A stretch of 64,000 nucleotides of DNA from Gongronella butleri. Taxonomy: Eukaryota; Mucoromycota; Mucoromycetes; Mucorales; Cunninghamellaceae. Position numbers and translations under genes: made by a program. Within the stretch, counting starts at the first letter, position 1; each line of letters begins with the position of its first letter. The notes under the pieces were generated by a model, which saw only the letters and a list, made by a program, of their open reading frames with translations, made no database searches and was not told the origin of the DNA. Below, piece after piece: positions 2,595 to 55,218 of the stretch. The DNA lies in assembly GCA_025201375.1 (NCBI GenBank), contig JAIWZP010000001.1, positions 1,350,501 to 1,414,500 on the forward strand, written 5' to 3'.

Positions 2595-4918
2595 TTATCG
2601 GCGCCACAGCATGTCTGACCAGGATTTCTTTGGCGGCATATCCTGTGCCAATGGCGACGATGGCGCGGCGTCTGTGCCTGGGTGTTGCAAGTGGATCTTC
2701 ATTTCTGCGGTCTCGTCGCGGGACTGTTTGAGGAAGGGCATGACATTGGTGCCGCCTGTGCCGCGCACGACCTTTGATTTGGGATCAACGTGCTTGGCAA
2801 GGCCCAATTGCGGGAAGAATTGCGTGACCTTGGACGATGGCGAGCCTGCGTGGATGCCGGGATTTGTCTCGAGGGCGGTTTGTGGGTACAGGATGTTGTG
2901 TTTGGCGGCGGACGAGCCCTCGGTGATGGTGGTGGTGGTGGAATTGGCCGAGGACGATGGCGACATGGGCACGGGCACGGGGGGCGTGCCATTGGTGGTT
3001 GCTGTGGTGGTCTTTTCAGCAGGATGGCCGTTGGTGGTGGGCTTTTCCATGGCAAAGCCGCCGTGGGCAATGTTGGGACCCTTGCGCGCTTGGTTAACAA
3101 TATACAGACTGACGATTTGCACGTGTTTGTCACGGAATAACTTGAGCTGGTGCAGACAGCCATTGTAGGCATCAATGATGGCGCGTTCCTGGTCGGTCAG
3201 CGTGTTGTTGTAGAATTTGCTCTCGAGGTGCAACATGAACGGGCGAATGTTGGCCGCCGACTCGAGATCCTCGAGGAACGCGCGGTGGGGCGCAGGCATG
3301 TACTTTCGCATGGCGCGCAAGAACGCGTTGCGGTTCGTGCGCTTGTAAGGAGCACGCGTGGGCGTCGCCGTGCCGGACGAAGCGGGCGACCCGCGCAATT
3401 CGTCGACGGGGCGCATCGAAGGCAAGTGGCGGTAGCGATCCGCAGGGTCCACGGACAAGTCAAGCGAATTCGACGGTTTCTCGCCAACCGGGTGGTGCTC
3501 CACACCAAACGCCACGTCAAAGCACGCAATCAAGCTGGATTGAGCGGCACTGCCACCGGCGTAACGGCGGTATTGGCGCAAAAGACGTTCTTCTTCGGAT
3601 AAATGGCTAACATCCGCGTACTCGTCGGTTTCCGCGCTCCAAAACGAGTCGACGCCTTCGTAAATCACACCAAGTGGCAGTCCAGCTTCGGCCATGTTCT
3701 CCCAACCCGCAAGGTACGGCCGGATCTTCCAATAAAACACGTACGGATCGCATTTCTCAAACATGCGGTGCAGCACGGCATTGATCTTCTCGAGGCTATC
3801 GCGCACCACACTAAGGTCTTCGGCCACCGCCGCCAAATCATTGTCGCGCACGTGGTCAATGCACGCCAGCAAGCGCGCAGGGCATTGCCCGCCTGCGCTC
3901 TCAATGGCCGTCGTAATCAGATAAAACCACGACTCGTCCAGCGAACCCGAGTACGTTGCAAATGTCGTCAAATTGCTAAAAACAAGGAGAGGGAGGGAAG
4001 GCGGCCGATGAGATAAAACACGGAACGGCGCGTAAAGAACTCTATTTTGTTTTTTTCCACGCTCCCCCCCTCGTCTTTTTTTTTTTTCCGCGTCCCTCGT
4101 GGCCCTTTCCGTGCTTGGGCACACCCTTGGCGCGTCCCATGACACGGTGGAGGGGCGCCCAGTGGCGGGGGCGGATCATTTTTCAAAGCGGCCTCTTTTT
4201 TTTTTTTTTTGTTCTTTACCTGAGATCGACGGGTCCCTCAGGGTCCAAGAGGCGGTAATTCCACAAGATGACGGCAGCATGGCACACCACAGGACACAGG
4301 CCAAGGTCATCAGCAATGGCGGACCATGGCACAGCAATGTTTGCCGGCAGGGTCTAGGAAAAAAAGACGAAAAAAAATGACAGTACCGTGAGAAAAAAGG
4401 TGGCCATGCGACCCTCACTTATTCTTTTTCTGCGCTTCCATTGCATCTCGCTGCGTCACACAAAAAGCTGATGTTTGGCAAGACCCAAAAAAAAAAAAAA
4501 GGTTACCTCAGAGGCCACTTCGTGTTTGCCCCACACATAGCTATGCGCAAGCATGCACAGAATCAAGAACGCACGGCGTGATTCTTGGATCGTCTTTAGC
4601 TTGCGATGGTCCAGCAAGGGCATCTACAATTGGAAAAAAAAGGGGAGGGGGAAAGCGTCAGTAAGAAATGAACACTTCATAGGATGGATTGGGAAAAAGA
4701 GGCGGGCATCACATTAGGCTGGGCAAAAATGCCCCTAGTGAGTTTGTTGTTACCTTGTGTATCCTGGCTCGTAGCTTGCCGGCCAGCAACAAGCCATTGA
4801 AATCATCCATCATGGTCTCCCATGGCTCGAAATAAGGATCGGTGAGCCTGCGCAAGGGTGGCTCGGGGGGTAAAAACCCAGTGACAGGCGAGATATCATA
4901 GTCTTCCAAGGGCTGCAT
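2595..4918 (-). CDS. IDO: Indoleamine 2,3-dioxygenase (heme tryptophan dioxygenase)
   Basis: Four exons, 4918-4754, 4623-4507, 4353-4220 and 3975-2595, join in frame to about 598 residues. IDO opens the indole ring of tryptophan with heme and O2 to give N-formylkynurenine, the first step of the kynurenine and NAD route. The N-terminus has the family run DPVTGFLPP-like (here SPVTGFLPPEPPLRRL), then YVWGKH, LPANIAVPW, YAGGSAAQSS, and MRKYMPAPHR. The proximal heme ligand fits His423 in FRDKHVQIV, and the C-terminal signature GTGGTN is present before MPFLK. A Pro/Thr/Ser-rich insert of about 60 residues separates the helix with His423 from the GTGGT loop; such inserts occur in fungal IDOs. The start is the first ATG and gives a full family N-terminus. 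Confidence 0.95.
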
Positions 4919-5917: not shown

Positions 5918-8900
5918 TTATTGCTTTTTCTGCGGCATCGGCGGATGATCTAGTAATTGAAGCAGCTGGGCAAGATCCCAGACGGTCCATGTAGTGTCGA
6001 GCAGCGTGCGACGCGCCCATGCGAGCCATTGCTTGGATGCGCCCGTGCCAGCGACGCGCTTCTTGAATTCGTCCGCGCACGCGGGCCATTTTGCGTGTGT
6101 TGCGGTGTAAGGCGGGATGGTAAGAGCCGCGAGGCGCGAAGACAGGTAAATGTCGATCAGCGTTGTCCATCGGAGCCAGTGGACGCGTGCGTGGAGGGCC
6201 AATGGCTGGGTGTGGTGGTCCAAAGGTGGATCCAATGACCAACGATGACACGTCCGCGCCAGCGCAACAAGCCCTGCTTTCCATTGTGCCAGCACTTTTT
6301 CATCGTCCTTGTTGCCATCTTGCAAGGCAAGGCAGCTCGCGTAGAATTGCACGAGCAACCACAATTTGTGCGTATTTGCTGCATCTGGTTGCAACATGGA
6401 CATCATGGCCACCGCCTCCTCAGCCACCGCTACTACCACCTCCTCTTTGGAAAAAGCCTGCTGCTGCTTGACACGGCAAAACAGCGTCATCGATAATAAG
6501 CACGACGCGTCTAAACACACGTGCAGCCAAGCGTCCAAGTTGGGGAGCGCCATTTCAAACACCGCAGGCACCGTGTCGCGCCACAATTGCACGTCCATCG
6601 ATGGCCCATGGTTCGGTTTGTCGTTTTCTGCCGGAATCACAAGTAATTGATCGAGGCAGCTCTCCAGGATTTGGACACGCCGGTCATTTGGCGCAGAATT
6701 GGTAGAACGGCAACATGAATGTACCATCCAGATTAACGATTGCCGTGTTTTGATGGCTTCCTCGATGGCACGCGTCACTACCGACACGTCCAAACTCCCA
6801 TGCGCGGCCTTGTCCACGAGCGCATCACACCAGTCGCGTACAAATCCATTCTTGTCCACAATCGACCCGTCGGCCTGGCGCACAAGCGGCTGGACAATGT
6901 CGCTTGCGTCAATGAGCGTGTCGTTGATGGTATCGTTGACGTTTTCGTTGTTGTTGGCATGGCGCAGCAGCCAATGCGCCATGGACCACTTGATCTCGTC
7001 GCTGGGCGCCATCCACGCCAAGGAAAACAGCCATTGTATGCACGTCGTGGCCCAGCACGGCGCGTCATAGTCGATCCCGCGGTCCAACGGCGTTTCCAGT
7101 GTCAGTGGCGCATCATGCATCGTGGATTGTGACGGCCACCATTGATCTGCCACGCGCAGCGCCGCATCAAAGTCATCTGGCCCTGAAATCCATCGTGGCG
7201 CTTGATCCAAAGCAAGAACACGTCGCAACGCGTGCGTGCGCTCCTGCGCGTCCGGCCAGAGCGACGAACTATGAATCAGAAGCAGCAGTGCAAGTGCAAT
7301 CGCGTCGCTACATGTCCCAATGCTGTCCGGTGAAAGCATCAGCAGCGCATCCACAAAAGCAAGATGGACAAGCAGCCGCCCATCATCCTCTTCGTCCTCT
7401 TCTTCTTCATTGTCGTGGTCCTCTTCTTCATTGTCGTCCTTGTCGCTCATTTCGCCATTACGGTCCTCTTTTTCGTCCAATTTGTCAATTTTGTGTCGTG
7501 CACTTTTGGCCAATCGAAGCGATTGCTGATGCAGCAGGGCCAGCGTGTCACGAGGCAGGGGTAAAAATGGCTCTTGCCACGGAAGCCGCTCCAAAAGGGT
7601 ATAATGGCCCGTGATCCACATTACATCCATGCGCTCCATCGCCAAAGTATCGAAATAATACCGTAAAATCGCCTCTTGAAGCGCCGCCGCCGCCTCGTCG
7701 TCCTCTGTCGTCATCAGCAGCTGCTGAAGCAGACACTCAAACAATTGGCAAATCCCGTCCACCGTGTCTGCAGGCGTCAAGGTATCTATTTGTAGAGAAA
7801 TGGGTAAAAAAGAGTAAAAACTGGTCAGAAAATGCCTGTTTTTTTTATCTCCCTCGCATCCCTCCACCTCCACCCCCTTTCCTCCATGGCTCCCTTTTTA
7901 CCTTCCATGGCGGCGTCCGGCAAAGGCTGCCAAAATAGACCAAAACAGTCGCAAATCAGATCAAGGGTCAGGGGCATGCGGTGGTCGAGGCATAAAACGA
8001 CCATGCAGCGCGCGAGGGCCACGCTCGTCGCGCCATACACGTATGCCGCGTGACGTCCGCCGCCGTGCGTCGCCATGTGCTGCCGCATGATGTCCGCAAG
8101 CGTCAATAATGTTTGCTCCGGGTCCGACAGCAAAGGAAACGCGTCCACAGGCGACGTATCCGACGTCAGCCACGCCTCAATCATCAGCACAGGATCCTTG
8201 CCGCACAATGCAGCCGTGTACAGGTCAAGCACGTCGCAAAAGCTCGTTTTTAAAGACGATTCTTGCGCACACGACGATGCAATGGCTTCCAGCAGCAGAT
8301 GAATCACGTATAGATGCTCGCCCTGCGCTGGTGGCTCGTCAAGATCATCGGGGACCAAAAAGGCCGTCATCAGATCCATCATCACTTGCGCATAGACCAT
8401 TGACAGCTGAATTTCATCTTTTTCGTCCTTTTGGTCTCTGTCGCGGTGTCTTTGCCGGATAAAGTCGCAACAGCCGAGGTAGCAGTGCTGCCGCATAGCA
8501 TCGTCGTGGGTATCGGGGCACGCAAGCCAGTCAAACGCGCGCACTAGGTGGCGCAGCGCTGAAGGGTCGATTTTGTCGATTTTTGTGTTTTTTTCGGGAG
8601 ATGGATCAGTGGATCGAAGCATCAGGCGCGTGACATGGTCGAAGCGCGTGGCAAACGCGTCTGGCGCGTGAGCGGCTGTGGTGGTGGGGTCGAATGCCGG
8701 GTAAAGATACGCCATGGCCGCCGGTGTCGCGTCAAACAGCGTCAAAAGCCAATCCATGCACTCTGGGTCGGTCGACAGCAAAGGCGCCGCCATGCCGCTC
8801 GCGCGCAGCAAGAACCCCGCCGCAGGAGGGTACGCGTGCACCGTGTTTTCGAGCCGATCCCACAGATAGGCCAAAGACGACCACGTGAGGGGCACCAACT

Positions 8901-9363
8901 GCTCGTGCACCAGCTGCTCCACCTTGGTCAGCCCAAGCAGGCTCTGTGTGCACACACGCGGGTCCACGTGCGTGGAAAACGACGCCAGAATCGCCTCGTG
9001 CGCTTGCTTCGCCTGCCGCTGCACTTGCAAATCATCGTCGTCGCTTTCCATTTCTTGTGTTGTCAGCGTGAGCGATGCCGCTTGCTTGCACCCCTTGTTC
9101 TTTTCGCAACGCACCTCCACCGTCGACAATGGTACTGTCTTCACCGAATGGCACTCGCCCAGCAAAGCCGCATAGTCACGACACATTCGGCTCTGGTCGT
9201 CCAGCAACCCTCGAAACAGCCCCGCATGATGGTGCATCGTCGTCACTAGCGAATGGAACAGCACATCAGGCGTCGACACCCGCAGGTCGTCCGCAGGCAG
9301 CCGCTGGATGGGGCGCACAAGGCGCAGCGCAGGAGGCGCGTGGCGGCTGGACGTGGCTGACAT
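5918..9363 (-). CDS. EPG5-like protein, C-terminal half
   Basis: Two exons, 9363-7902 and 7785-5918, join (phase 1) into about 1109 residues ending at TAA. The chain is helical and Leu-rich with few motifs, as in large alpha-solenoid scaffolds. Read after the upstream half (10126-14219), the total is about 2470 residues, close to the roughly 2580 of human EPG5, and the order of features (a DYAALL segment followed by a Cys-containing beta-like stretch and a long helical tail) fits my memory of that family. EPG5 tethers autophagosomes to late endosomes and lysosomes. An acidic stretch of about 35 residues near 7370-7480 is low complexity. Start is uncertain: ATG at 9363 is the first in frame, but a small upstream exon near 9470-9520 is possible. 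No search was run; an unrelated solenoid protein remains possible. Confidence 0.55.
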
Positions 9364-10125
9364 GGCCGAGCAAAATGCATAAGATAGAGAAAAAAAATAG
9401 TAGCAAAGAAGAAGAGCGAAAAAAAAAAGAGTGAGCTACCTGGCGGGGTTTTGACCTTTTACCGCCTTCGCTGCGCGAATATTTCAGGCACGCATCCCGC
9501 TTTCCGGCCATCCCTGATTAGCTCGGCATCCAATCTGAAAGACCTGGTGCACAAAATAAATACGTGCAGCGGCAACAAAAATTCATTCATGCATGAAATG
9601 CAGTGGACTTGAAAATGATAAAAACTGCGATTTGCTCGATAATCACTTGATCGATCATGTTTTTTTTTTTTGTAAAGGCTTGCAGCATTGATGGCAAGTT
9701 TGACACGAAGCAGCTCAAGCAATCTCGGGCAAATTGTAAAAATAGACCAAAAATGACTTTTCATTTTGAGATGGGTGGTCTGTCTTTTGCACTGGGCCAT
9801 GCATACTGTAGTTTATGCCATGACGCATTTTTCATTGGCGGGCAAGTAGGCTGTAAAAAAGTTTCTGGAGGCACAACAGGCGGACAAAGTCTGAAAAACA
9901 CACTCTTTGGTTTTTAAAACGAAAAATGCGTACGTTTTTGTGCAGTGTATGATAGCGCGATGCTTCAGGCATTGAAATGTGTCGATTTCTATCCACTGAG
10001 ATTTAAACAAGGACAAGTCAAACGCATTATTTCTGTGTAAAATCCCAAAAAACGGATGAAAATCGTGCTCTTGTGCATTTTCTCGCTTGATGATGGGTGC
10101 GGTGCAAAATGCCAGTCTCTGTGTT
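9364..10125 (-). repeat. Repeat copy between the two EPG5-like halves
   Basis: The gap of 762 bp between the stop of the upstream half and the first Met of the downstream half holds a segment (about 9700-9950, minus strand) clearly related to 29370-29570 (+). A 46-base core around 9830-9880 differs at about four positions, and both copies still translate through ASRN(F/I)FTAYLPANEKC. The rest of the gap has stops in all frames. Close to 9480-9530 (minus strand) an acceptor-like CTAATCAG is followed by a short open stretch and a GTAAAAG donor, which could be a small exon. Confidence 0.65.
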
Positions 10126-13100
10126 TTATTGCAACTTGTCGCGATCTATCCAGGGGTAGGCATCGAAGCGCGCGAGCAGAGCTTCACGCTGCACGAGGTT
10201 GGTCCAAAGGGTATCGAGTGAGAACCATGGCTGCTGGCGCTCCCAGTTGTCGGTATCTTCATTGTCGGGGACGCGTGACGGCACCAGGCACGCGGCAAGG
10301 CGCGCGGGGCAATAGTGGCTCTCGAGAGCGTCCATGTCTACGTGCTTGTTGGCGGGGGACGGCATGCCGAGCCACAGCCACATGGCGTGGTACATCTCGC
10401 GCAATCGCTCGTGGTAGTCGTAGTTTTCTTGCTGTTGTTGCTCGGGCAATGTGGAGGGCGATGAAGCAGATGCTGATGCGCGCTGGCTCTGATACGTTTG
10501 CAAAGACGCGACGCGGTCGCGGACCTTGGCGACCATCTCTTGCTGGCGTTTCACAAAAAAGGCGGCACCGAGCGCAACACGAGGACATTGCTTGTTGTCG
10601 GTGGTTGATGCGCGACATGCAGTCTCAAAGTACAGGCAGAAGAACAGCTGGAGCAGCAGGGGCAAAGCAGGATGGTCCATGGGCGCGGCAAGGATATGCT
10701 GGGCAAGGCGATAAATGACGAAAAAGTCGATGGGTTTGTTTGTCAAGCGTAAAAATGAGTCGTGGGCGTCCGCGACGTTGTCGCGCGACAACAGATGCTC
10801 GGCCAATTGGCGGCGTAGCGGGGCCTCGATGCGTGTTTCAACGAGTAGCACATAAAATGCAAACCAGAGACGCGATGACTCGACGCCCGGCGTCTTGTAC
10901 AGGTTGTTGGCCGTCAGCGACAACATGGACCACTCGCCATTGAGCAGCGACAGTATGGACGTGGTTTCCGGCAGCATGCCTCGGATGTAACGAAGCACAT
11001 TCCGCGGTGTGGCCGCCGTCGTGGTAGTCATCGTTGCAGACGATGCCGCCGCTGCTGCGGCTGCGGCAGCCAAGGACCCCGACGATGACGACGATGACAT
11101 GGACATGGACTTGGTCATGGCTGGTTGCTGCTGCTGCTGCTGCTGCTGTTGCTGTGATGGATGATGAGGATCATTGATGGGCGATGTAGATGATGATGAA
11201 GAAGAAAGCGCATGCAATCGCGTGGTTTCGCGCGCAAACAGATCCACGACGGCCATGTCGAGGCCGAGAACAAAGGCCAAAAAGCACAGATTGTCCATCA
11301 ATTCGATATATTCCTCCTGCCACATCCAGTCGTCGCGCCGCATAAGAGTAGTAAGCCATGCATTCATGACCAGATGCAAGTAGGAGAAGCCGTCCAGGTG
11401 ACTGACACGATCAATGTACCTCGCGTGCCAAGCGTGTGCGCCAAAGATCAGCGCCATCCCGTTTTGGTGTTTTTGCGGGAAAAAGGCCAGATTTGTCACC
11501 GATTTTGCCGATTTTTCGTTTTTCGCTCCCTTTGTTGTCCCTATCGATGATCCCAGCAATTCGGCTGCAGCAGCGGCACGCAACATGGGGTCCTTTTTGA
11601 GGTGGATGACATGGCGCACGAGGTCGACCATGGCGGTATCGCTCAGAAAAAAATCGTCGCCGTGCAAATAAACAAAGGGCGGGACGCATTGGCTGAGCAA
11701 TTGGATAAAGGCGGTGCCGGGCCCGCGTGTCAAGATGAGCAACAACTTGCGCCAGCCGAAACCCGCGTCAAATCGCAAAAATTGGCGCGATGTCGGCGAC
11801 AGGGACAGGACGACAAAGACGAGCATGGCGGCATGCGATGCGACGGCGTCGTTTGGATGGTTGACATACTCGCGCACAAAGGCGGCGTCGATGCACTTGT
11901 CGACATCCATGGCGCGCGAAGACACGGGACGGTGATAAAGCGCTAATTGTTGAATAATAGTCCATGCCCACGCGACAAACTCTGCGTAGCCCTCCTTGTT
12001 ATTGCCATTGTTGCCGATGGACGCCGAGGACACGCTACCAGAGCTTGAATTGCTGCCGACCTTGGCCATGGGCACTCCGGATGACGATGACGACGACGAC
12101 AATTTTGCCTCTTCTTGCAGGGATGACCACATGGGCTGCGACAGCACGTCCGAGGCGGAGGCGGAGGCAGATGTGGATGCGGATGCGGATGCAGCAGCGG
12201 CTGCGGTGGCGTCGGACTGGAGTAATTGCGAGCGGTAGAGCATGCAAGTATCGAGCAAGATGAAGGCAAGGTCTTCGTGGATCAATGGCGAGAGGAATGG
12301 CGGGCGGATGAGTGTGGCCCATGTATAAGGCGACGAGGATGCGTGGTGTGTGTCGTCCCTGGTGCTTGCCAAAGATGGCAAGACGCCAAAAGGCAAGTGA
12401 TCAATTACATATTGGGCGAATGCAGGCCAAGGTGCGGGATGATCGCCCAGGAATTGGTACAAAAAAACAAGATCGTCCCTGAGCACGTGCCAGCGGTGCA
12501 AAGGGAGGGATCGGAACAAGTACAGAGCCATGGCATCCATATTGGCCGCGTGCGCATGCGTCCATCGCAAAAGGAGCGAAATCACAAATGGATGAGCCTC
12601 GGCCATGATCCCCAGGGCGTCGCGCACGTCCTTGTATGCGGCCGTGGCCTGGAACACAAATGCAAGCTGGAATAATGCGTGTGCAATCAAAGTCACAAGC
12701 GCACATTCGACGGTGGTGTCCACCACGGATGGCGTGTCGGCCCCACTCGCAATGGCAACCGTAATGCTCGTCAGACACCCCACCAAGAACACAGCCTCAT
12801 TTGCATGCGATTGCACCATGTCGGCCAGCGAATCAAGCGCGGGAGGCTGCCGCAATAAATGTTGCCATCGTGTAGGTGGACGGAACGACGCGTCCAAGCA
12901 TAGAAACCGTAGACTCACGTCCCACAACAAGGGGACCGGCATGGAATCAAATGGCAAAGCGTTCAATTGCGACCAAACATCGTGGTCCATGACGGCCATC
13001 AAGGCGGCCACTGTGTCGAGCACCAATGCATGCGTGCGAGAAGCCATGGTCGCGTGTGCTTGCCTCGATTGTAAAAAGACACGCACCACATGGCACAATT

Positions 13101-14219
13101 GCTGTGTCAGCCGCTTCGTCAGGCCAGAAAACCGCCATTGCGACGCCATTTCCACCCCAGACAGCATGGCGTCAAAAAAGGCACCACAAATAATAAAAAA
13201 CTGGGCATGCTTGTCCTCTTTTTCCTGGTCATTGTCCATTGCCTTTTCCACGTCATCGTGGGCGGCCACCCAGCGTGAAAACACATTGACAAGGTCCAAT
13301 TGGTCGAGACACGCGACAAAATCGTCTTCTTGCCACGGATCTTTGCCATTGTCGTCCTCTTTTGATTGAAACACAAGAGCAAGGGCGCGGGTGGCCAAAT
13401 TCATGGCAGAGGGGTCGTTGTTGTTGTCGTCATCATGCAAGTGTTGGATGAGCGGGGCGCCCCATTGTGCGACGTCTGTGCACTGGCGCAGGTGATGTAG
13501 CAAATACAACCGGTCTGCGGTCGTCTGACCGAGTCTGAGAAGCACGCCGCCCACGTGCAGCACCCACTCTCGCACGTGCTGGCCAAAATAACCATGCGAC
13601 GCGTCCATATTCATCGAAAACAGCGTGTTGAGCACACGTTTGACTGAAAGCACGTCGTCGGTCCACGCAGCACGCATCCCAGCATCGCCGCCTTGATCAT
13701 GGTCATCCTCGGAATTCGCAAGCACGAGCCACAGGTCCGTTGCCGCCACAAGATCCGATCGAAGATGCAAATTCCATAAAATCGTATCAATGGCTGCCTG
13801 GATCTCGAGTTTGAGCATGCGGCACTCGTACAATTGCCCAAACAGGTGTGTATGCGCCTCGCGCGTCAGCCCCGCGAGTGCCACGCCCATTTGCTGCGCC
13901 GCGTCCGCGTCAAATTGCACATTTTGACTTTTGTACGTATGCTGTACGGTCATGCCATCGCCACACATGCCCGTGACCATGGTTTCTGCTTGTTTAGTCG
14001 TCCACACGACAGGCAACACGTCGTCCGGCGTCATCCCCACCAATAATGCTTCTTGGCGCGCTTTGATGACGCTTTCAAGCGCACATTGATATTGTGCAAG
14101 CAGCCGTGCAAGCGCCTCGTCCTTTTTTTCGTCATTATCGTTGATTTCCGCGTGCTCGGTGGTAGCTGCTGCTGCTGCTGCAGTGGCGGCGGTCGCGGTA
14201 CCGGTCGATGCAAAACGCA
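10126..14219 (-). CDS. EPG5-like protein, N-terminal half
   Basis: One long exon, about 1364 residues, running from an acceptor (TTTCAG at 14225-14220) to a TAA at 10126. It is rich in Leu/Trp helices, and an early segment resembles the KARQEAL...LPVVW and CGDG region I associate with EPG5. Low-complexity inserts include Ala/Ser runs, a ten-Gln run from a CTG-type repeat at 11125-11153, and Ser runs near 11090 and 11195. The 5' end is unresolved: the exon begins at a splice acceptor, and a donor GTGAGTC near 14282 could join it to a leader reaching ATG at 14524. The final codons overlap an AATAAA-like string, so the transcript may end here or continue across the repeat into the half at 5918-9363. 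Single-gene and two-gene models both remain open. Confidence 0.55.
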
Positions 14220-14713
14220 CTGAAACGCAATAAAACAGCTCGTGAGTCTCGGCCCTGGGCGCTTGGCAGAAAAAAAGAGACTCACCCTTTTTCTTGGCTG
14301 TTGAGCGCGGCAACACGATGATGGAGAATTGAAAAAAAAGAGGGGATAGAAACACGAGAAAAAGGCCGTCTTGGCGCAGCGTGATGGCAGGTTTGCTCAG
14401 CAACAGCAAAAAAAAAAAAGAGTCGTTGAAAAAAAAGAAAGAGACAAAAGTGTAAAAAAAAAGGGCTGGGGGGGGGGGCGCGGGTTACACAATTTTGGCA
14501 AGAAGATCGGAGTGTGAAAACCATTATAAATTCAATGCTGCGAGGCGAACTGCCGTTTTGTGCCTTTTTTGCGTCTCTTTTTTTTTTTTTGTTTCTTTTT
14601 ACTTTTTTTCCCCCTGTTCTTTCGTTTCAACGTTCGAGGCCGCCACTTCCCCCCCTCCACCCACCACCGACACTCGCTTCCCCCCTCTTTTTTTTTTCCG
14701 ACGCCTTCGTCCC
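14220..14713. promoter_or_regulatory. Divergent promoter region, EPG5-like and KH genes
   Basis: Head-to-head spacer between a minus-strand and a plus-strand gene. It has pyrimidine-rich runs leading to the KH start codon, a G12-type run near 14467-14478 and a TTATAAAT string near 14523. The 5' leader exon of the EPG5-like gene may also lie here. No defined regulatory motif was recognised. Confidence 0.45.
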
Positions 14714-16789: not shown

Positions 16790-18039
16790 CGTGGGGCCAA
16801 GCCCACACGCAGCACAAGACACGCGTTCCATTTTTGCTTTTTTTAATTTTTTTATGTATGGATGGCTGATTCTTCTTTATTTTAATTCATATCACGTGTC
16901 GTGACCATAGCATGAGCCAATGGACACAACAGTGACGGTGGAACTTGCAGCCGAGCACCGTGCGTTTATCCGCGGCAAGAAGAATGGCAAGATGAACAAG
17001 GTGATGAAGGAAACAGGCACCCTGATCAAGTTTGTATCGTCGTATAGCGAGCTCAATTGCCTTGTGGTGCTGTCGAGCACCGAGATGGATAAGGCGTTTG
17101 ATGGCTTGGCCATGCTTGTCGACGAATTACCCGAGGAACGCTCGTTTTTCGTGCCCGACATTTACCATCGGCGCATCATTGGTGTCGGCGGTGCAAACAT
17201 CCAAGCCATCATGAAAAAGCACGGCGTCTATGTAAAGTTTGCAGGCACAGACGAGTTTAATCAGCTGGGTGGCTATTTTCAAAATGATCACAATGTGCTC
17301 GCTCGTACGCCGCACAAACGCAAGGCAAGCCTCGATGCCTTATTCGACGAAATCATGTCCATGATCTCTTTCAACAAGGACCGCGATTGGACATCGCAAA
17401 ACGTCAAAGTGCCCTTGCATCAGCATCGCACCATCCCAGCCCAATTCAATGACCATTTGCGTGAACTGCGCCGACTGTACAACACCCGCGTCATGTGGCC
17501 TGCGCGGTATGGCAACGACAATGTCGCACTGGTCGGCCCAAGCTCACAACTCCAAGTCGTCAAGCACTTGTTTTTGAAATTCCTGACCTACGCCCATTTT
17601 TGCGCGCTCCCAGCCTCGGATGCATTACAAACGGAGCTCGCCAATCCCTCGGAGAACCTTCAGAATGTGCTGCATCACATTGGCCAGGAAATGCACGTGG
17701 CTGTCGTCGTGCCCACGTATCCTGCACGCGAATTGACCGCGCCACACGCTGAACCCGTGAATTGGGCCATTGTCTCCGCATTCAAGGACGCCATGGTCTT
17801 TTGCCTGCTCACCAAGGTGCCACAGGACCAATTGGTCACCGAAGACAATGGCTTTGCCGTCCAGGATTGCAACGCACGCCTCAATGATGCCAAAATCAAG
17901 CTTTTATCGTGCCTTGCCCCCTATGCCGCGCCTCCTTTGGCTCAAAAGATGGAAAAGTCATTACCATTACCCCGCTCGGGCTTCCAACGGAGTAAGGAAA
18001 AAAAAACGCGCATTTCGAGCCCAATTTGGGCTCATTTTT

Positions 18040-18072
<33 letters not shown>

Positions 18073-19322
18073 GAACAGGACCAGGGCCCAATTCGTTGTT
18101 TGCCCACGACCCTTCGGTCCCGCAAGGGCTTCTCGAATCGTTTTCATCGACATTGCTTCTTGGCACTGACACGCGGCGCTCCGCGCCAGGCCCGCCTCCA
18201 ATGGTCGACCTTTCAACACCCGCAACGGCTCCGCTGGCGCCTCCCTATTACCACCGCATGACCGACACATGGTCGACGACAACAACAACGACGCCGGCGA
18301 CAACGCTCGATAGCAATTATGGGGCTCCGCTCGCGCCACACGCAAGACGACCATCGCCACCACGCTCGCAATCATCGCATCGACACGAAAAGCCGCCATT
18401 GACGCTCAGTATCCCGCGACAACAGCCTTTGCCCGTGGGTACGGCACCGCAATCCGCGCCCGTCCACGCTCCTGCCAACCAATTTGCCATGCCATCGTAC
18501 AATGCCATCCGCAAACAACATCAACATCATCACGACATACCCATTGCCTCGCCCACAAGCCCAACGCCCATCGGCGTCGCCCCAACACGCTCAGCATCCG
18601 CTTCAAATTGGCCAAATCAACGCCAATTCGACGACATTTCTCGCGTAAAAATCAAAAAACGGCCATGCTTGCCACAAAAAGTACGAAATACGGTCACTCG
18701 CTCACCCACCCATCATCCCACCCTCTTTTTTTTTTTTTTATGAAAATTAGGAGATGGGCGTGCCTCAGTCCGAGTCTGAGGCGGCAGCCGTGTCAAAATC
18801 CCCGCCAATGATGCCGTTCACGCCATTTGCATCCGGGCCCACGTTTATGCCACCAGCTCCGCCCAATTCTTCGACCGCGCACCATCACCAGGCCCAGGCA
18901 TCTCAGGAAATTGGACTCGGCGCATATAACCGCGGCTTTTCGTCCCTCTGGTCCACAAAGGAACCACAACCAAGCCTGTTTACGACCTTTGCGCCAGCGG
19001 CTCCCATGTCGCCAGCATTCTCAGAGTATCGCACCACCAATTCGTCCGTCAGCTCCGACGCGTCGTCGCTGGCGAGCTTCCCAAGTAATGCTGCGAAAAA
19101 AAAGTGAAATTGCCCTTGTTTGCCCTTTTTTTTCTTTTTTTTTCTTCTTTACTCTCACGTTTCCTCCACATCCACCGCCCACACCTTTTCCCCGGCCATC
19201 CTGCTGTTGCTCACCCGAACTTTTCCAAATGATCAGGTGACGGCAAATATGAACTCAAGGGCCAACCTGTCTGGGGCTACCAGCAAAACGTGCTTTTGCC
19301 TGGCTGGGAGACGCTCCAGTAG
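14714..19322 (+). CDS. Multi-KH-domain RNA-binding protein
   Basis: Ten exons (14714-14956, 15083-15292, 15445-15690, 15893-15998, 16146-16252, 16398-16619, 16911-17991, 18079-18680, 18751-19084, 19237-19322) join in frame to about 1078 residues. Repeated alpha/beta units of KH type cover residues 1 to about 620; the clearest GXXG-like loops are in FIRGKKNGK (about residue 397) and IIGVGGANIQ (about 467), with further units in the early exons. KH units bind short single-stranded RNA, so a role in mRNA localisation or translation is likely but not specified by sequence. The C-terminal third is a Pro/Ser/Thr/His-rich low-complexity region ending in a short conserved-looking tail, PVWGYQQNVLLPGWETLQ. 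Introns carry a T33, an A33 and a T30 run. Vigilin/Scp160 or BicC are alternative names; I would not choose between them. Confidence 0.8.
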
Positions 19323-47659: not shown

Positions 47660-49698
47660 ATGATTTCCACGAGTCACCCCACTCTGCAAAAGCTGATCAA
47701 GACGCTGGAAGTCGAGCAAGACAATGATGTGTCCACAAACTCCAACTGGATCAACCGCGACCTGGCGCCTGTGCCACCTGGTATGGGCCGACGCGCTCCT
47801 GAGCAAAGGCCTCTGGGGGACGAAAAACGGATAAAAGTGACATGCTCTCTAATGCATTGACTTTTTTTTTTCAGAGCGACGTACGTGGAAATGGTGGAAT
47901 TTTTGCACATTTTGGATCTCGGACTGTCTCAATGTGAATTCGTTCATGATCGCGGGATCATTCATCGCACTTGGGTGCAATTGGTGGCAGGCATTGATTG
48001 TCGTGGCCGTGGGATATTCTTTGGCGGCTGTCGTTCTCGTCATCAATGGTCGCGCGGGCGCTGTCTATCATGTTGGCTACCCCGTTCTCACACGTTCATC
48101 GTTTGGCCTTGTGGGCGCCTATATACCCATTTTGAATCGTATTCTCCTTGGCATTGTCTGGTATAGCGTGCAAAGCTGGATTGGCGGTGTAAGTTTTAGT
48201 TCAAACTTGACCTGGACGGCTGTCGGCGCGGTGCGCTCATTCTATTTTTTTTTTAACTTTGATGCAGGAATGCGTATACCAGATGCTTCGTGCCATGGCG
48301 CCCAGTGTGGCGGATATCCCAAACACGTTTGGTCCCAATGCAGGCCTTACAGTCGCCCAATTCCTTGGCTGGTTCCTGTTCAGCTTGCTGTCGCTGATTG
48401 CCATTTGGTTCCCTGTGGAAAAGATTCGCCATTTGTTCACGCTAAAATCGATCATTGTTCCAATTGCCGCCGTGGCACTCTTTGTGTGGGCTGTCGTCAA
48501 TTCACACGGCCTTGGTCCTATTGTTGACCAGCCCGCCACGTTCACGTCGTCGTCGCAGGCCGCATGGGCCATTGTCTCCGGCATCACCGGCTGCATGGGC
48601 AACATGGCCGCTTTGGTAAGTTGACAAACAGGCATTTCACTGGTTTTTCCCGCTTTGTGCGACGCTGCCAGCGCACAAAGATTGAAGTCAGCGCGTCCGA
48701 GATAAGCGGGCTGGGATGAAAAAGAGCTTCTCGATCTGCGTATGTATACCTTATCTCACTCCCTATTTTTTATTCTTTTTTTGGCCCAGATTGTCAACAC
48801 GCCTGATTTCACCCGCTATTCGACCAAGCCCAGTGACATTACATACTCGCAACTGATCACGATGCCCCTGGGCTTCTTCTTGACGTCGTTCATTGGCATC
48901 ATTGTCACGTCTGCTGCGCAACATCTATATGGCGAGGCCCTGTGGAACCCAATTGATATTTTGGATCGCATGGAGAACCGTGCCGCTGTCTTTTTCCTGG
49001 CGTTTGCCTTTGCCTTTGCGACCCTCGGCACCAACCTGGCCGCCAATTCGATCCCTGTGGGCGCCGATTTGAGTGCCGTGTTCCCACGATTCCTCAACCA
49101 GCGCCGTGGTGGCTACATTTGCGCCGCCATTGCCATGTGCCTCACCCCCTGGAACTTGCTCTCTGGTGCTCAGAATTTCCTCAACTTCCTTACCGCTTAT
49201 ACCATCTTCCTCGCGCCAATCACTGGCATTATGATCACGGACTGTAAGTTTAAATGGCGTGCACGTGAAATTTGGCGTATGATCCATGAGCTCATCCTTT
49301 TTTTTTTTTTTATCGCAGATTACTTTGTCAAAAAGGGCAAGCTTGCTGTGCCACAACTGTACGATCCGTCCGGTATCTATTGGTACAAATGGGGCTGCAA
49401 CTGGCGAGCGTATGCAAGCTATATTTTGGCCATTGTTCCCAACTTGCCTGGTTTTGTTGGTGCTGTTGGCCACACGGCGCCGCCCGGTGCCGACCGCATT
49501 TTCACGCTTGCGTGGTTTGTCGGCTTCCTCCTCTCCAGCGCTTTTTACTACCTTTTCAACATGTTTTTCCCGTGCCACTGGATCATTGCCGAAAATGAAA
49601 AGGAAGTTGTCGTCGACCCCTCTTCGGTTCCCAAGGACGACCACGAAAAGGAACAAATTACATCGCGTCACTCTGGTCAAACATATGATGACGCATAA
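47660..49698 (+). CDS. NCS1 family nucleobase/hydantoin/allantoin permease
   Basis: Five exons (47660-47780, 47875-48188, 48268-48615, 48790-49243, 49319-49698) give about 538 residues. It is a proton-coupled plasma-membrane symporter of the LeuT fold with 12 predicted membrane segments. The entry signature NWINRDLAPVPPERRTWKWW, the GYPVLTRSSFGLVGA motif and NTPDFTRY before TM6-like sequence identify the fungal Fur/Dal4 branch. Substrate cannot be read from sequence; uracil, uridine, allantoin and hydantoin carriers are all close relatives. The upstream racemase makes allantoin or hydantoin the leading guess. The tail is acidic and Lys-containing, consistent with ubiquitin-dependent turnover known in the family. 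Confidence 0.93.
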
Positions 49699-51383
49699 AA
49701 ACGCAAAACACACAAAAAAAAACACGTCGTTCTTAAAAGTCACTTTTTCATCTCATTTACTTTCTTCCTATCATTCAATTCTCACTTTATCCATCACCTT
49801 CTTGCTTGTATTTTTAAGTTTGTAAATAAAAATTTCTTGTAATTGTAACATCTAATATCCATTGTAGGTATATTTGTATTTAATGCGCGAAACACTGTAT
49901 CATATGATAGTCGCGTCCGTACTTTTGCTTTGATATGATGACACATATGTTGTGTTGTATACATTAATATACAGTATCAAGACAGGCGATTGATGATGAT
50001 GCAACAAAAGTAGATCAACTTGAAGCTTGATGTTGAGGAGGTCCTGGGTCCTTGCGCGGCATTCCGCAAAAGTCTCAACAAATGAATTAGCAGGCAAACG
50101 CGGTAAAAGCACTTGTGGTTTGAAGACATCGCGTCGTGCTCTCGGCGAGTTAGCCTTCAAGGGTCGTTTTGGTTCCGTTTTGGCCCTGAGTTTGCACAAA
50201 ATGCATTTTCTCAGGACTGGATGATCCGATTTGCAAAAAAACTTGGAATCATCGAAGTTTTGAGTCGAGTATCCACCAGTCTAAATTTGGCGCCAGATAA
50301 TCAGGTTCATCGGGAGAAACGCGTAAAGTATTGTTTAGCGTTGGGTTTCACTAGCAAACTCGCATCTCGAGATTTCTCGAAACTGAGTGATCCGATCCGC
50401 GAAAGAAATTAACACCGCTGAAGAATTGGGTCTACCATCAACTGGTCCAAACTTGGGACCAGATGAGCAAGTTCCTGAGGACGCGCCTATTTCATAGGCG
50501 TAAAAAGGATAAAATCACGACCATTTGTTCTCGTACCGCGGCAACGGCTGAGCGCCCCGACACGTGAGATACATCGAATGAATTAGCGTGCAAACACGGT
50601 AAAAGCGCTTGTGGTTTGGGGACATCGCGTCGAGTTCTCGGCGAGTTAGCCTTCACGGGATTGATTTGGCTCTGATTCAAGCAAAATGCATTTTCTCAAG
50701 ACTGAGCGATCCGATCACCGAAAAAACTTGACATCGTTGGTGTTTTGTGTTTAGCATGCTCTAGCTCAAATATAGGACCTGGAGGACGGGCCCAGCAAAA
50801 TGAGGATAAGATTTTGTCCATTCTGGTAGCGTACGCGACAACGGCCCAACGCATCGACGCGTGAGTCGCCTCAATTGAATCAGCGGCAAACGCGGTAAAA
50901 GTGCTTCTTGTTTGGAGAGATTGCGTTGAGTTCTCGGCGGATTGGATCGAAATGAATCCGAAAACGCGCAATTTTGATTTTGGTTTATTGTAGGAGCTTC
51001 TTTTTATCGCGTGCCAAGCAAGGATTAACGCAACGACGCGTCTAAGTGTGTGTTGAGAAAATGACACACTGGACGATTTCACATAGTACAATTCAATCAT
51101 CAATTTTATCTGAAAAGAAAGAATGGGAGAAACAAGCTATGATATGATAAATTCAAAGCGGGGTCTTCCGCCCTTGCCGAGGCAAAGGTTTTTTTGATCG
51201 ATTTCAGTAAGCGCTCATCTATGGTGGACGTGTGTGTTCTTTGCATGAAGCGGGATTTTAAACAAGGATTTCTCCTTTTTTTTTTTTTTCTCTATCATAT
51301 TGTATTTTCTGTTCCCTTTCTTTTTTTTTTCCCAAGCGCTCTGTTTCCTCCCAAGCACTCTGTGTTTTCGTTTTATCCCGAGT
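49699..51383. other. Intergenic with degenerate tandem repeats
   Basis: The first 200 bases are AT-rich 3' flank with ATACAGTATC-type words (49887, 49971). The centre is the array described separately. The last 250 bases include T10-T15 runs that precede the F-box gene. Confidence 0.6.
50040..50955 (+). repeat. Repeat family C, degenerate tandem array
   Basis: A unit of about 250-300 bp recurs three to four times. AAACGCGGTAAAAGC-type sequence followed by a TTGTGGTTTG block and TCGGCGAGTTAGCCTTCA appears at about 50096, 50590 and (shorter) 50888. The downstream half, ATGCATTTTCTCA then GATCCGAT, recurs at about 50200, 50390 (partial) and 50685. Identity between the best two units is high over 120 bp. 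No coding frame persists across units. Confidence 0.75.
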
Positions 51384-53258
51384 ATGAACCGTCTTCCGGA
51401 CGAGCTGCTACAGTCTGTGTTGGAGTGCGTGCCCAAGGACGACCTTCTTTCCGTGCGCTTGACGAGTCGCGCTTTGTATAGCGTGGCGACCGAGGTGTTT
51501 TTCCGCAAGCACACGGTGTATATTCAAGATCGCGACGATCTGCGTCGTCTTGTCAAGTTGATGAGCACAGCGCCTGAAAACGCGGTGCCAATTCAACGAT
51601 TGGAGCTGTACACGTCTGTGTGGACGCCCTCGCCGACGGCGACGCGTGTGGACGTCGCATGGAAGATGGGCATGTTACTGGTTGGCCGCGCGGTGCCTTA
51701 TTTGCAGCGTTTGACACACTTGTACTTGCAACCGCCGCAAAGTTTTGAGAGCAATCTCAATGAACAAACGTGGCGCGTGTTCAAGCAGCTGTTTCAACTG
51801 CCAGCGCTCCTCGATTTGGATATTTTGTCGGTCGCGCACGTGCTGCGGTGCCCACTGCCATCTATGCTGTCGCGTCGCCTCACGACGCTCCATCTGGACA
51901 TTATTATGCCTGATCAAGACCTTCTTATCATTTGCCAATTGCTCGAGCACATGACGAATCTTGCCATTCTCACGGTGCGTGTGCCGTCGCCCATGATTAA
52001 CAAAAAGCCGCTGTCGCGCTTTGTCCATGGCCAGCTGCGTACAAAGCCTCAATTCCTGGAATTGCGCGATTTGACGATCCTGGTGGGTTGTCACAGCTAT
52101 GAGGAAGAGCAAGAAATTGCGTCGTTGCTCTCGTTTCTCTTTTACGTGACGCCGCGATTGGACAAGCTTCGCGTTGAGACGGGCACGTACGAGGACCATC
52201 GCATTCCGAGTCTTTCACGCGTCATGCCGCCGGACCCCACGCGCCTCCCTGTCCGCTACTTTGGTTTTCCTCGCGAATTGGTCGTCGTGCTCCATCTGGG
52301 CCCCATTTCTTGCGTTTGGGAAGCGCCATTGCGTCTTGATTATCGTGCTCATTATCCGACGCGTCTGCCTGAAAAGGTGGTTTGCGTGTCGCCGCTGCCG
52401 ACGGCGTTGATGTTACTGATGTATCTGCCAACGTCCAATATGACCCATGTGGAGCTTCAAGGTGGCAATGAATCCACGGCGCTGCTGTCGTTGGCCTTGT
52501 GGCCGCGTGTCCTCAATCGCATCCCTACACTGGAAACGCTGAAATTCACGCTTGTGGACCTGTCCGAACAAGGGCTGGCGCTGTGCGAGACGCCTGAATG
52601 GCACGGCAGTCGCGACCGGGTGAATCACCTCTCGTTCATGGGCTGCATCCTGGACCGGCCGTCGACGGTGACACGCGTGCTGCGTCTGTGCCCATCCGTC
52701 CAGAAACTCGACATTCTGCACTGCATGTGCCGTTCGTGGCAGATGGACGTGCCCATCCACGACAATCCGTGGGTCGCGTCGCTTCGCGCCCTGTTCCGGT
52801 CGCGACGCACCAACAAATACACGTTCTTTTGGTGGCATTTGCCGGCCAGCCAGCTGCACATGCACGTGAGCGAGCAATGCCCGCATCTGGAATTGCCGCG
52901 TCTCCACATCATCCTGCAGGACACGTCGCATGCCATTGGCCAGACAACGCGCATCTGGCTACGCGAAGTCGATGGCTACGATCTGGTGCCGTCAAGCCAA
53001 TCGTCGGAACTGCCATACCACGAATTGTCGGCTCAAGAGGTGCTCTATGTGCGCCAATATATCGACAGCCATCAAGCGGCACTCAAGAGCCCGCGCGTCC
53101 TTTTCGATAATGATAGCCAGCTCGATCCGATGGAGCTCTACGACCTCGCTGTCTTTTGCTTGCGCCACCATCTCATCACCGTCTACACGTGCAACAGCTT
53201 GACTTTTTGTCATTTTATCATGGACGCCAAACAAAACATCGCTCAATTGACCATGTAG
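51384..53258 (+). CDS. F-box protein with a leucine-rich solenoid
   Basis: A single exon of 624 residues. Residues 3-45 form an F-box (LPDELLQSVLECVPKDDLL, then SVRLTSRALYSVA). The rest is Leu-rich with irregular repeats of the kind found in fungal F-box/LRR proteins. F-box proteins dock substrates on Skp1-Cullin-1 ubiquitin ligases; the substrate here is unknown. Such genes are usually numerous and fast-evolving in zygomycete-type fungi, which fits its position beside a repeat array. No intron was needed, unlike most neighbours. Start chosen at the first ATG, placing the F-box at the very N-terminus. Confidence 0.85.
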   Translation: MNRLPDELLQSVLECVPKDDLLSVRLTSRALYSVATEVFFRKHTVYIQDRDDLRRLVKLMSTAPENAVPIQRLELYTSVWTPSPTATRVDVAWKMGMLLVGRAVPYLQRLTHLYLQPPQSFESNLNEQTWRVFKQLFQLPALLDLDILSVAHVLRCPLPSMLSRRLTTLHLDIIMPDQDLLIICQLLEHMTNLAILTVRVPSPMINKKPLSRFVHGQLRTKPQFLELRDLTILVGCHSYEEEQEIASLLSFLFYVTPRLDKLRVETGTYEDHRIPSLSRVMPPDPTRLPVRYFGFPRELVVVLHLGPISCVWEAPLRLDYRAHYPTRLPEKVVCVSPLPTALMLLMYLPTSNMTHVELQGGNESTALLSLALWPRVLNRIPTLETLKFTLVDLSEQGLALCETPEWHGSRDRVNHLSFMGCILDRPSTVTRVLRLCPSVQKLDILHCMCRSWQMDVPIHDNPWVASLRALFRSRRTNKYTFFWWHLPASQLHMHVSEQCPHLELPRLHIILQDTSHAIGQTTRIWLREVDGYDLVPSSQSSELPYHELSAQEVLYVRQYIDSHQAALKSPRVLFDNDSQLDPMELYDLAVFCLRHHLITVYTCNSLTFCHFIMDAKQNIAQLTM

Positions 53259-53890
53259 CCACCTTTTTTCTCAGCCATTCATCCTCGTTCCCTCTGTCTT
53301 TTTCTTCTCCTCCATTTTATCCACATTTTCCAAAGTTCTTTTTTTCTTTCCCCTCCCCTCCATTTCCACCTCTTTTTTTTTTTTTTTTTTTTTCTTGTCA
53401 TTTCTCATCTGTACACACATTTCAATCCTCCATTTTTCCTTGTACATGCCTTGCTCTCACTGTAATTACCCCCCAAATGTTGAGCCCAAATCCCCGTCTG
53501 ATGCACATCTGTTCTCTGCATTGAAGAATAAATAGTGAAATTTGTCAAAATTGTAAAAAGAAATGGCAAATCACGCCTGTCGTTCCTGGTTAAATGACGC
53601 GCTGGATGGTGACCGCGTAATTAAAAAAAAAAAAGAAGGGAGGGGCAGCGTGCCAGGTATACGATCAGAGGTGCAACGTGATGGAAAATGCACATTTTAA
53701 GTTTTTTTTTTTTTTTCCTCATAGATTTCTGTCTTTTGAACGCCTTGTCGCAAACAATATCCCCCCAAATCAGGGACGACAAGAACGCGTCCTGGGCCGG
53801 AACTTCAAAATGAATGCTTTTGACGCAGCATTTTCACTTTTTCTTGATTTTTGCTTTTACTTTTTTTTTTTTTTACTTTTCTACTGCACT
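53259..53890. other. Intergenic, F-box 3' flank and HAUS6-like promoter
   Basis: 632 bp. The first half is C/T-rich 3' flank with T runs, including about T21 at 53372-53392. AATAAATAG near 53527 may be a polyadenylation signal. The second half has T12-T14 runs close to the next start. No other gene seen. Confidence 0.55.
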
Positions 53891-55218
53891 ATGAAGGTCC
53901 ACGTGGAGGACGACGAGGACCGGCAGCGTGTATCGCTTCCGCTGCTTTTCCTGGACAATTTACAGCTGCTCGGGTTTGATCAAAAACAGCACGCTTCGGA
54001 CGAATTCTTCCACGGTGTCTCGCTGGACAACCGTGTGTTTGCCAATGAGCACGATGCGGTGGTCAACGCGCTTGCGTTTGAGTGCACGAGCCATTTTTTG
54101 TTCACGCGCGTGGATCCTCTGCGGTCGACGACGCTTTTTCGCGGGTGTTGGCCGTTTCAGGACTATGAGCGTGACAGCCGGCGGTATCGGCAGTGTGCGC
54201 GCGAGTGGCTCCTTGCCCTGGAGGCGCAGAGCGACCTTGTGGGGCTGCAGGTGCCTGTTGCCGCGTGCGATTTTGCCATTTGCTCCGGAAATGGGTTTTT
54301 GGTCCTGATGGTTGCATTCTCCACGTACGCATTGCAATTGGTCCTCGACCGCGACCTTGCCGACCCGCGCGGTAAGCCCATCCGACTATCTGCACGCACC
54401 AATGCCGTGCCACTTGCACAAATCGCCGCGGCCATCCCGGAAATTGCAAAATACACGCACCAGCGCCGCCGCGAGTTTATGACCATGACAACCAGCATCG
54501 CAAAGCATGTGGCCGTCATGCGCCAGCGCATTGATACCCAAGGTAGGCAAAAAAAAAAAAAAAATACGAGAAAACAAAAAGGGCGCGACGCGACGTGCAG
54601 TGGCGGGTCTTTTTCTTTTTCTTTTTCTTTTTTTTGACTATTTTTTTATATTGCTATTGACTAGACAACGATACCCAACAAGGCGACAAGGAGGACGACA
54701 GCGACGTGACATGGCTGGATGAGATGCGGGAAGACATGCTGGTGATGCGAGACCGCCAGCACGACATTTATCGGCGCTACAGGCAATATTATGGCTGCGC
54801 ATCGCCTTACAGGCGCGACTCGGAGTAAGTGGGCCACGAGTTGACGCATCACTGTCATACCCCTTGGCGTGGCATGAAAAAGCAATTCTGATCGTGTTTT
54901 TGCCCCTATTTTTTGCTTTTAGATCCACGGCATCCACGGCATCTAGGCGAGCGTCGATGAAACATCGTGCATGGCCGCCCGATTTGTTCACGCTTCCATC
55001 GCTGCTCTCGGGTAAGACAAGGAGGGATACAAGGGGAGGGGCGCTGATTCCGATTTTGTTTTTTATCTTTTTGTCATTGTTGGTTAGAAATGGATGGAGG
55101 TGCACAAATGGAAGCAATCCGTAGCTTTACACGTGACAGGGCCAAAGAAAGGGGCATCGTCAGAACCGCGGCAAGTGCGAAAAAGGCGCGGCGACAACCA
55201 ATGGCAAACACCACCTGA
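53891..55218 (+). CDS. HAUS6/Aug6-like augmin subunit
   Basis: Four exons (53891-54542, 54665-54824, 54923-55011, 55088-55218) give about 343 residues. The N-terminal 170 residues fit the HAUS6 N-terminal domain as I remember it: LQLLGFD near the start, then FLFTRVDPLRSTTLFRGCWP and YRQCAREWLLAL. Augmin is an eight-subunit complex that recruits gamma-tubulin to existing microtubules for branching nucleation. The remainder is shorter than in animal HAUS6 (about 950 residues) and ends in a basic low-complexity tail, so this is either a reduced fungal form or my 3' exons are incomplete. The call rests on the N-terminal pattern only. ATG at 53891 is preferred over an upstream in-frame start because the domain begins just after it. 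Confidence 0.7.

Follow-up and report, generated by a model that had tools for sequence, protein, structure and literature searches.

A relative of the EPG5 tether in a Mucorales fungus, probably encoded by two adjacent genes

EPG5 is the Vici syndrome protein, and the locus described here raises the question of whether a fungus encodes a relative of it and, if so, in one gene or in two. According to the available text of PMC7935953, animal EPG5 binds Rab7 on late endosomes, Atg8 on autophagosomes (via LIRs) and also SNAREs in the course of their assembly, and the human protein is staff-shaped and predicted to be mostly helical. Its range is described differently from source to source: the same available text calls EPG5 metazoan-specific, the abstract of PMC6443784 calls it eukaryotic-specific instead, and passages of PMC12005284 list epg-5 without a yeast name.

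The window, by which we mean the whole analysed stretch of 64,000 nucleotides from Gongronella butleri, had been described in an earlier note as carrying two adjoining minus-strand coding blocks of about 1364 and 1109 residues, and we recover them as 1363 and 1109 residues. Block A, the EPG5-like N-terminal half (10126..14219, minus strand), lies in a stop-free minus-strand frame of 1452 residues (14484..10126); its reading frame of 1363 residues starts from a likely splice acceptor that ends at 14220 and closes with a TAA at 10128-10126. A probable intron of 66 bp (14220..14285, minus strand), read from the sequence as GTGAGT...TTTCAG, precedes it, and the first coding exon and 5′ end of gene A upstream of this intron are not settled. 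Block B consists of exon 1 (7902..9363, minus strand), which has its own ATG at 9363, a GT...AG intron of 116 bp (7786..7901, minus strand), and exon 2 (5918..7785, minus strand), which runs to a TAA at 5920-5918; joining the intron borders yields a frame of 1109 residues whose sole stop is the terminal one. Shuffling the window base by base 40 times gave a longest stop-free run of 358 codons (mean 190), and block A is therefore far beyond chance. The GC content at codon positions 1/2/3 is 0.60/0.43/0.65 in A and 0.63/0.42/0.67 in B. Between the blocks lie 762 bp of non-coding DNA (9364..10125, minus strand) with a GC content of 0.42, versus 0.56 and 0.57 for blocks A and B; the three frames of this stretch contain 10, 2 and 6 stops.

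Other genes in the window include an indoleamine 2,3-dioxygenase-like exon downstream of B on the same strand (2595-4175, minus; Pfam IDO, E 6.8e-86) and, divergent from gene A, a KH-domain protein (16911-18740, plus; KH_1, E 3.9e-13). Farther along the plus strand are a member of the cytosine/purine permease family (48706-49695, E 6.8e-62), an F-box protein (51249-53255, E 1.3e-6), and a HAUS6_N match (53621-54634, E 9.7e-18), an augmin subunit that is perhaps of interest in a fungus.

The assignment of the joined pair to the EPG5 family, put forward in the earlier note from sequence pattern, length and order, is borne out by sequence searches, which recovered proteins annotated as EPG5 as well as a fungal one labelled Epg5-like. 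Searching a large database with A and B joined gave six proteins at E ≤ 10, including proteins already named EPG5 from a snail, a thrips and a beetle. Also among the six were the unnamed P0002 (E 1.3e-211) and P0003 (E 3.8e-200), a hypothetical protein of Syncephalastrum racemosum that carries the UniRef label Epg5-like, and the snail EPG5 was found at E 2.2e-16. P0003 (2178 residues) is homologous over both A and B and is an unsplit predicted chain, unlike the window's pair, whereas P0025 of Apophysomyces ossiformis (1276 residues, annotated as 'Ectopic P granules protein 5') is homologous over A. Identity of P0002 and P0003 to the window is 31-33% for A and 21% for B. Within the six-protein set, BLASTP aligned A with residues 45-1207 of P0003 (33% identity over 1353 columns) and with the Littorina (snail) EPG5 (E 4e-25), and B with residues 1240-2231 of P0002 (21% identity over 1147 columns, E 9.6e-34) and with P0003 (21% over 1124 columns, E 3e-26); the best match of B to the animal proteins of this set was only E 0.34. 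When P0003 was searched against the source genome (33.0 Mb, 110 contigs), it gave four matches, all at this locus, in which exon 1 of block B matched residues 1233-1463 at 28% identity.

Comparison of HMM with HMM, which the earlier note had named as the check on its call, placed A on the N-terminal part of EPG5 and the B-containing fungal profile on the C-terminal part, in order and nearly end to end. With HHalign, a 16-row profile of A matched columns 293-1454 of an animal EPG5 profile, built without human, fly and worm EPG5, at 100% probability (E 5.7e-72), and a 12-row profile of the fungal C-terminal half, composed of B and 11 unsplit fungal proteins, matched columns 1494-2577 at 99.9% (E 2.5e-36); reversed animal alignments as controls gave 0.3% (A) and 0.2% (C-terminal half). 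B alone was non-significant against the animal profile (3.8%, E 0.011), although it was placed at columns 1496-1746, the right position, and its link to animal EPG5 is thus a transitive one through the unsplit fungal proteins. Both halves accordingly match animal EPG5 in order over nearly the whole length, except that the N-terminal extension of the animal protein is unmatched, A starting near residue 457 of the snail protein. The six animal-type rows are single chains of 2394-2796 residues, whereas the window apparently holds two genes. As judged from sequence, both halves are collinear EPG5 relatives, and one copy was found in the genome.

A Pfam scan of A and B gave only chance-level matches and no EPG5 family. 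This null is no evidence against EPG5, since animal EPG5 (P0004) and the fungal P0002 and P0003 also fail the same scan, in which the set of families lacked PF26103. The precomputed Pfam annotation of the window's A protein (P0048) lists PF26573 and PF27745. A sequence search of the PDB returned one match for A, at E 0.087, and nothing for P0004 up to E 0.1, and no loci related to P0048 were found in viral contigs.

A second search, starting from P0003, listed 46 proteins out of a capped set of 7990 scored candidates, and the combined set holds 44 fungal-type proteins (including the window's A protein, P0048) and six animal-type ones, several of them placed by tree only. In the tree, A clusters with proteins of Absidia, Chlamydoabsidia, Halteromyces and Cunninghamella and one unnamed protein (SH-aLRT 100). 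Halteromyces and Cunninghamella belong to the Cunninghamellaceae, Mucorales, and this position among Mucorales proteins agrees with the earlier suggestion that the host is a fungus. The window row has a long branch (1.27), and the quick tree flags it for branch length and composition. Unsplit chains account for 12 of the 44 fungal proteins (2151-2908 residues), with unsplit predicted chains in Syncephalastrum, Zychaea, Fennellomyces, Circinella and Phascolomyces. Another 31, P0048 (1284 residues) among them, are short (1197-1354 residues), and the C-terminal ends of the 30 short proteins other than P0048 fall within the linker or slightly beyond it. The remaining one, P0012 of Dichotomocladium elegans (1680 residues), is cut at the linker yet sits inside the unsplit clade; either its chain broke independently once more, or its gene model is wrong.

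With P0012 left out, the 31 short rows, including the window, fall on one side of a branch in the quick tree (SH-aLRT 88), which is not decisive for a single origin of the short form; an alternative topology, with the window and the five proteins closest to it placed outside the remaining Mucorales, was not rejected (p-AU 0.23). The ends of the short chains also vary. In the window's A and the five proteins nearest to it, the chain stops no more than about 20 residues from a W(V/I)D motif; Mucor-type tails extend to a PLPPL..NTP-like stretch, which in the window has its counterpart at the start of B; and the Apophysomyces tail reaches further than the Mucor type. Two breaks or later drift are both possible for these short forms, whose records, compared as protein models, may contain gene-model errors.

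How A and B are expressed in the window is the next question. We consider it probable that each has a gene of its own, the two lying side by side on one strand after an ancestral gene broke apart in its linker, and separate transcripts for A and B are likely. This reading is favored by the interval between them, with its stops in all frames and low GC content, by B having its own ATG behind a pyrimidine-rich leader, and by the 31 short fungal proteins with their ends at or near the linker; in an alignment with the 11 unsplit fungal C-terminal halves, block B begins within the linker. The interval is accordingly read as the 3′ end of gene A plus the promoter of gene B and, less likely, as the bulk of one long intron.

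If it were an intron, A and B would be exons of a single EPG5 transcript, as the 12 unsplit chains among the 44 fungal proteins would suggest, with an intron of about 790 bp. No splice donor of the usual type occurs near the end of A. Joins of A to B that are in frame and stop-free comprise five of the GT-AG and 17 of the GC-AG type. Four of the five GT-AG joins cost A about 20 to 32 residues, and only two donors spare A to within three codons of its end, both with the acceptor at 9347. The first of these, the fifth GT-AG donor (10135, GTTGCA), gives an intron of 789 bp at the cost of roughly two codons from A and the initial six from B. The second, a GC-AG donor (10132, GCAATA), gives an intron of 786 bp and the junction WIDRDKFRHAPPAL, which is near the GSDKFR/GSEKFR of relatives. 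Both donors are poor, however, and with 22 joins tried a likeness of two residues could arise by chance. The leader before the ATG of B is 0.82 pyrimidine over 60 nt and could also be a splice acceptor tract, and the T-rich tract ahead of the acceptor and of this ATG does suit splicing. The tails of A and its five kin diverge right past W(V/I)D, as gene models entering an intron would, but six separate gene models (P0041-P0045, P0048) stop A at that point, and B has its own ATG. Length also counts against a single transcript: 25 hand-picked gaps between neighboring kinase-domain pieces in the source genome, which need not all be introns, measured 66-366 bp after correction, and since the interval exceeds every one of them, an intron of about 790 bp would be an outlier. 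The existence of 17 GC-AG joins, including the one that would bring back DKFR, lowered our estimate for two genes, though to a level that we still call probable, and raised that for a single spliced gene, which we nevertheless regard as doubtful.

Even with two genes, B need not take part in the function of A. A could be a working protein like the short worm EPG-5, and B a leftover or a protein with another job, a reading compatible with two genes that we hold to be rather improbable. Going by the available text of PMC7935953, with which the window is compared by description, the EPG-5 of C. elegans, at 1599 residues, is only about half as long as the human chain, so that a half-length EPG5 does exist, and human EPG5 without residues 1770-2579, which are dispensable for the purpose, retains GABARAP binding. 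The window differs from the worm case in keeping an adjoining B. A search elsewhere for stand-alone B proteins found none at E ≤ 0.01; it was a weak search, made with an alignment of four C-terminal halves against 7993 candidates chosen by words from the first 500 residues. Against B being a remnant, its frame runs unbroken through 1109 codons, and it is as similar to the 11 other fungal C-terminal halves (19-22% identity) as the distant pair P0046/P0047 is to the remaining ones (19-23%), so that B looks undecayed.

The structures of parts of A and B were predicted separately with AlphaFold2. The predicted head of A (residues 10-124; 13774..14118, minus strand) consists of a long helix, a beta-hairpin and another long helix, and the predicted head of B (residues 32-130; 8974..9270, minus strand) of a helix, a beta-hairpin and a helix in the same order. 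When profiles of the two halves were compared with each other, the best match was head to head both for fungal A against the fungal C-terminal half (E 0.034, and 0.011 in the reverse direction) and for animal N-terminal against animal C-terminal half (E 0.0022), with reversed controls at E 0.07 to 0.7; in the mixed pairs, fungal A with animal C-terminal half and fungal C-terminal half with animal N-terminal half, the head-to-head match was not recovered. Head against head scored 21.4 and 23.1, versus 15.3 and 14.9 for the best of 27 control windows each. However, among 336 window pairs, five pairs, representing two other, shorter stretches, outscored the heads (24.3 to 22.6 versus 21.4), and internal duplication is therefore not established from sequence; we treat a duplication origin of the EPG5 halves as a lead. 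The models of A and B have the same best PDB chain, which may reflect merely common helical repeats. That both blocks belong to some other solenoid family, such as the karyopherins, nucleoporins, CAND1 or Utp10, and imitate EPG5 only through a shared helical pattern, is very hard to reconcile with profile matches that come in order, and we consider it highly improbable.

If A and B together act as EPG5 does, their contact with Atg8 would have to differ from that in animals. The animal LIR1 stretch (AWxxLDSDGEE-like), present in all six animal-type rows, would stand in the window just before WQEDDFVACLDQ (13300..13335, minus strand) and is missing there: no W..[LIV] core occurs in the aligned segment of any of the 44 fungal rows, including the window, most of which read W.EDD..L..LDQ or near it. 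The animal protein thus has a LIR core where the window protein has none, and of the six animal-type rows a single one has a LIR2-like core downstream. Other W..[LIV] cores elsewhere in A are putative as LIRs. Because the animal LIR stretch is missing where it would be expected, any contact with Atg8 must be made through a different motif or surface, and to judge by these alignments the absent core weakens any direct carry-over of the animal mechanism. Candidate partners are encoded in the source genome, which holds one match to Atg8 (E 2.5e-34, at C67) and, once, at C91, a Rab7-type signature with a Rab7-like frame adjoining.

We infer that the pair functions as an autophagosome tether. The A and B proteins would re-associate after the gene fission, A serving as the hook-like part that touches the autophagosome and B as the shaft, and the pair would tether autophagosomes to Rab7-marked late endosomes or vacuoles and aid SNARE assembly, with Atg8 contacted by means other than the animal LIR stretch. 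More tentatively still, EPG5 might be an old opisthokont tether of two related modules (each a helix-hairpin-helix head plus a helical solenoid) that has been split at the module border in some Mucorales, perhaps by more than one independent break, and that docks there on autophagosomes without the animal LIR stretch.

The homology of fungal proteins to EPG5 is already known to annotation pipelines, and databases name some of the fungal relatives. In the open-access literature, we found neither the split nor the gene arrangement described, and nothing on the missing LIR core. Open-access full text held nothing joining EPG5 with Mucoromycota, Rhizopus or Mortierella, nor 'ectopic P granules' with fungal; among the matches listed for EPG5 and fungi, all titles were off topic, and the available portions of the open-access literature on EPG5 and choanoflagellates contained nothing on EPG5 evolution.

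The occurrence of fungal EPG5 was noted for Mucorales and Mortierellales, other fungi being outside the survey. Its presence in these two groups would mean either that EPG5 predates the split between animals and fungi and was lost in other fungi, or that it was transferred early. The missing LIR core raises the question of whether tethering is older than Atg8 binding. A genetically simple fungus could become a test bed for the protein behind Vici syndrome, and a natural split would mark where the chain tolerates cutting, which may help in expressing the halves and in assigning binding activities to each.
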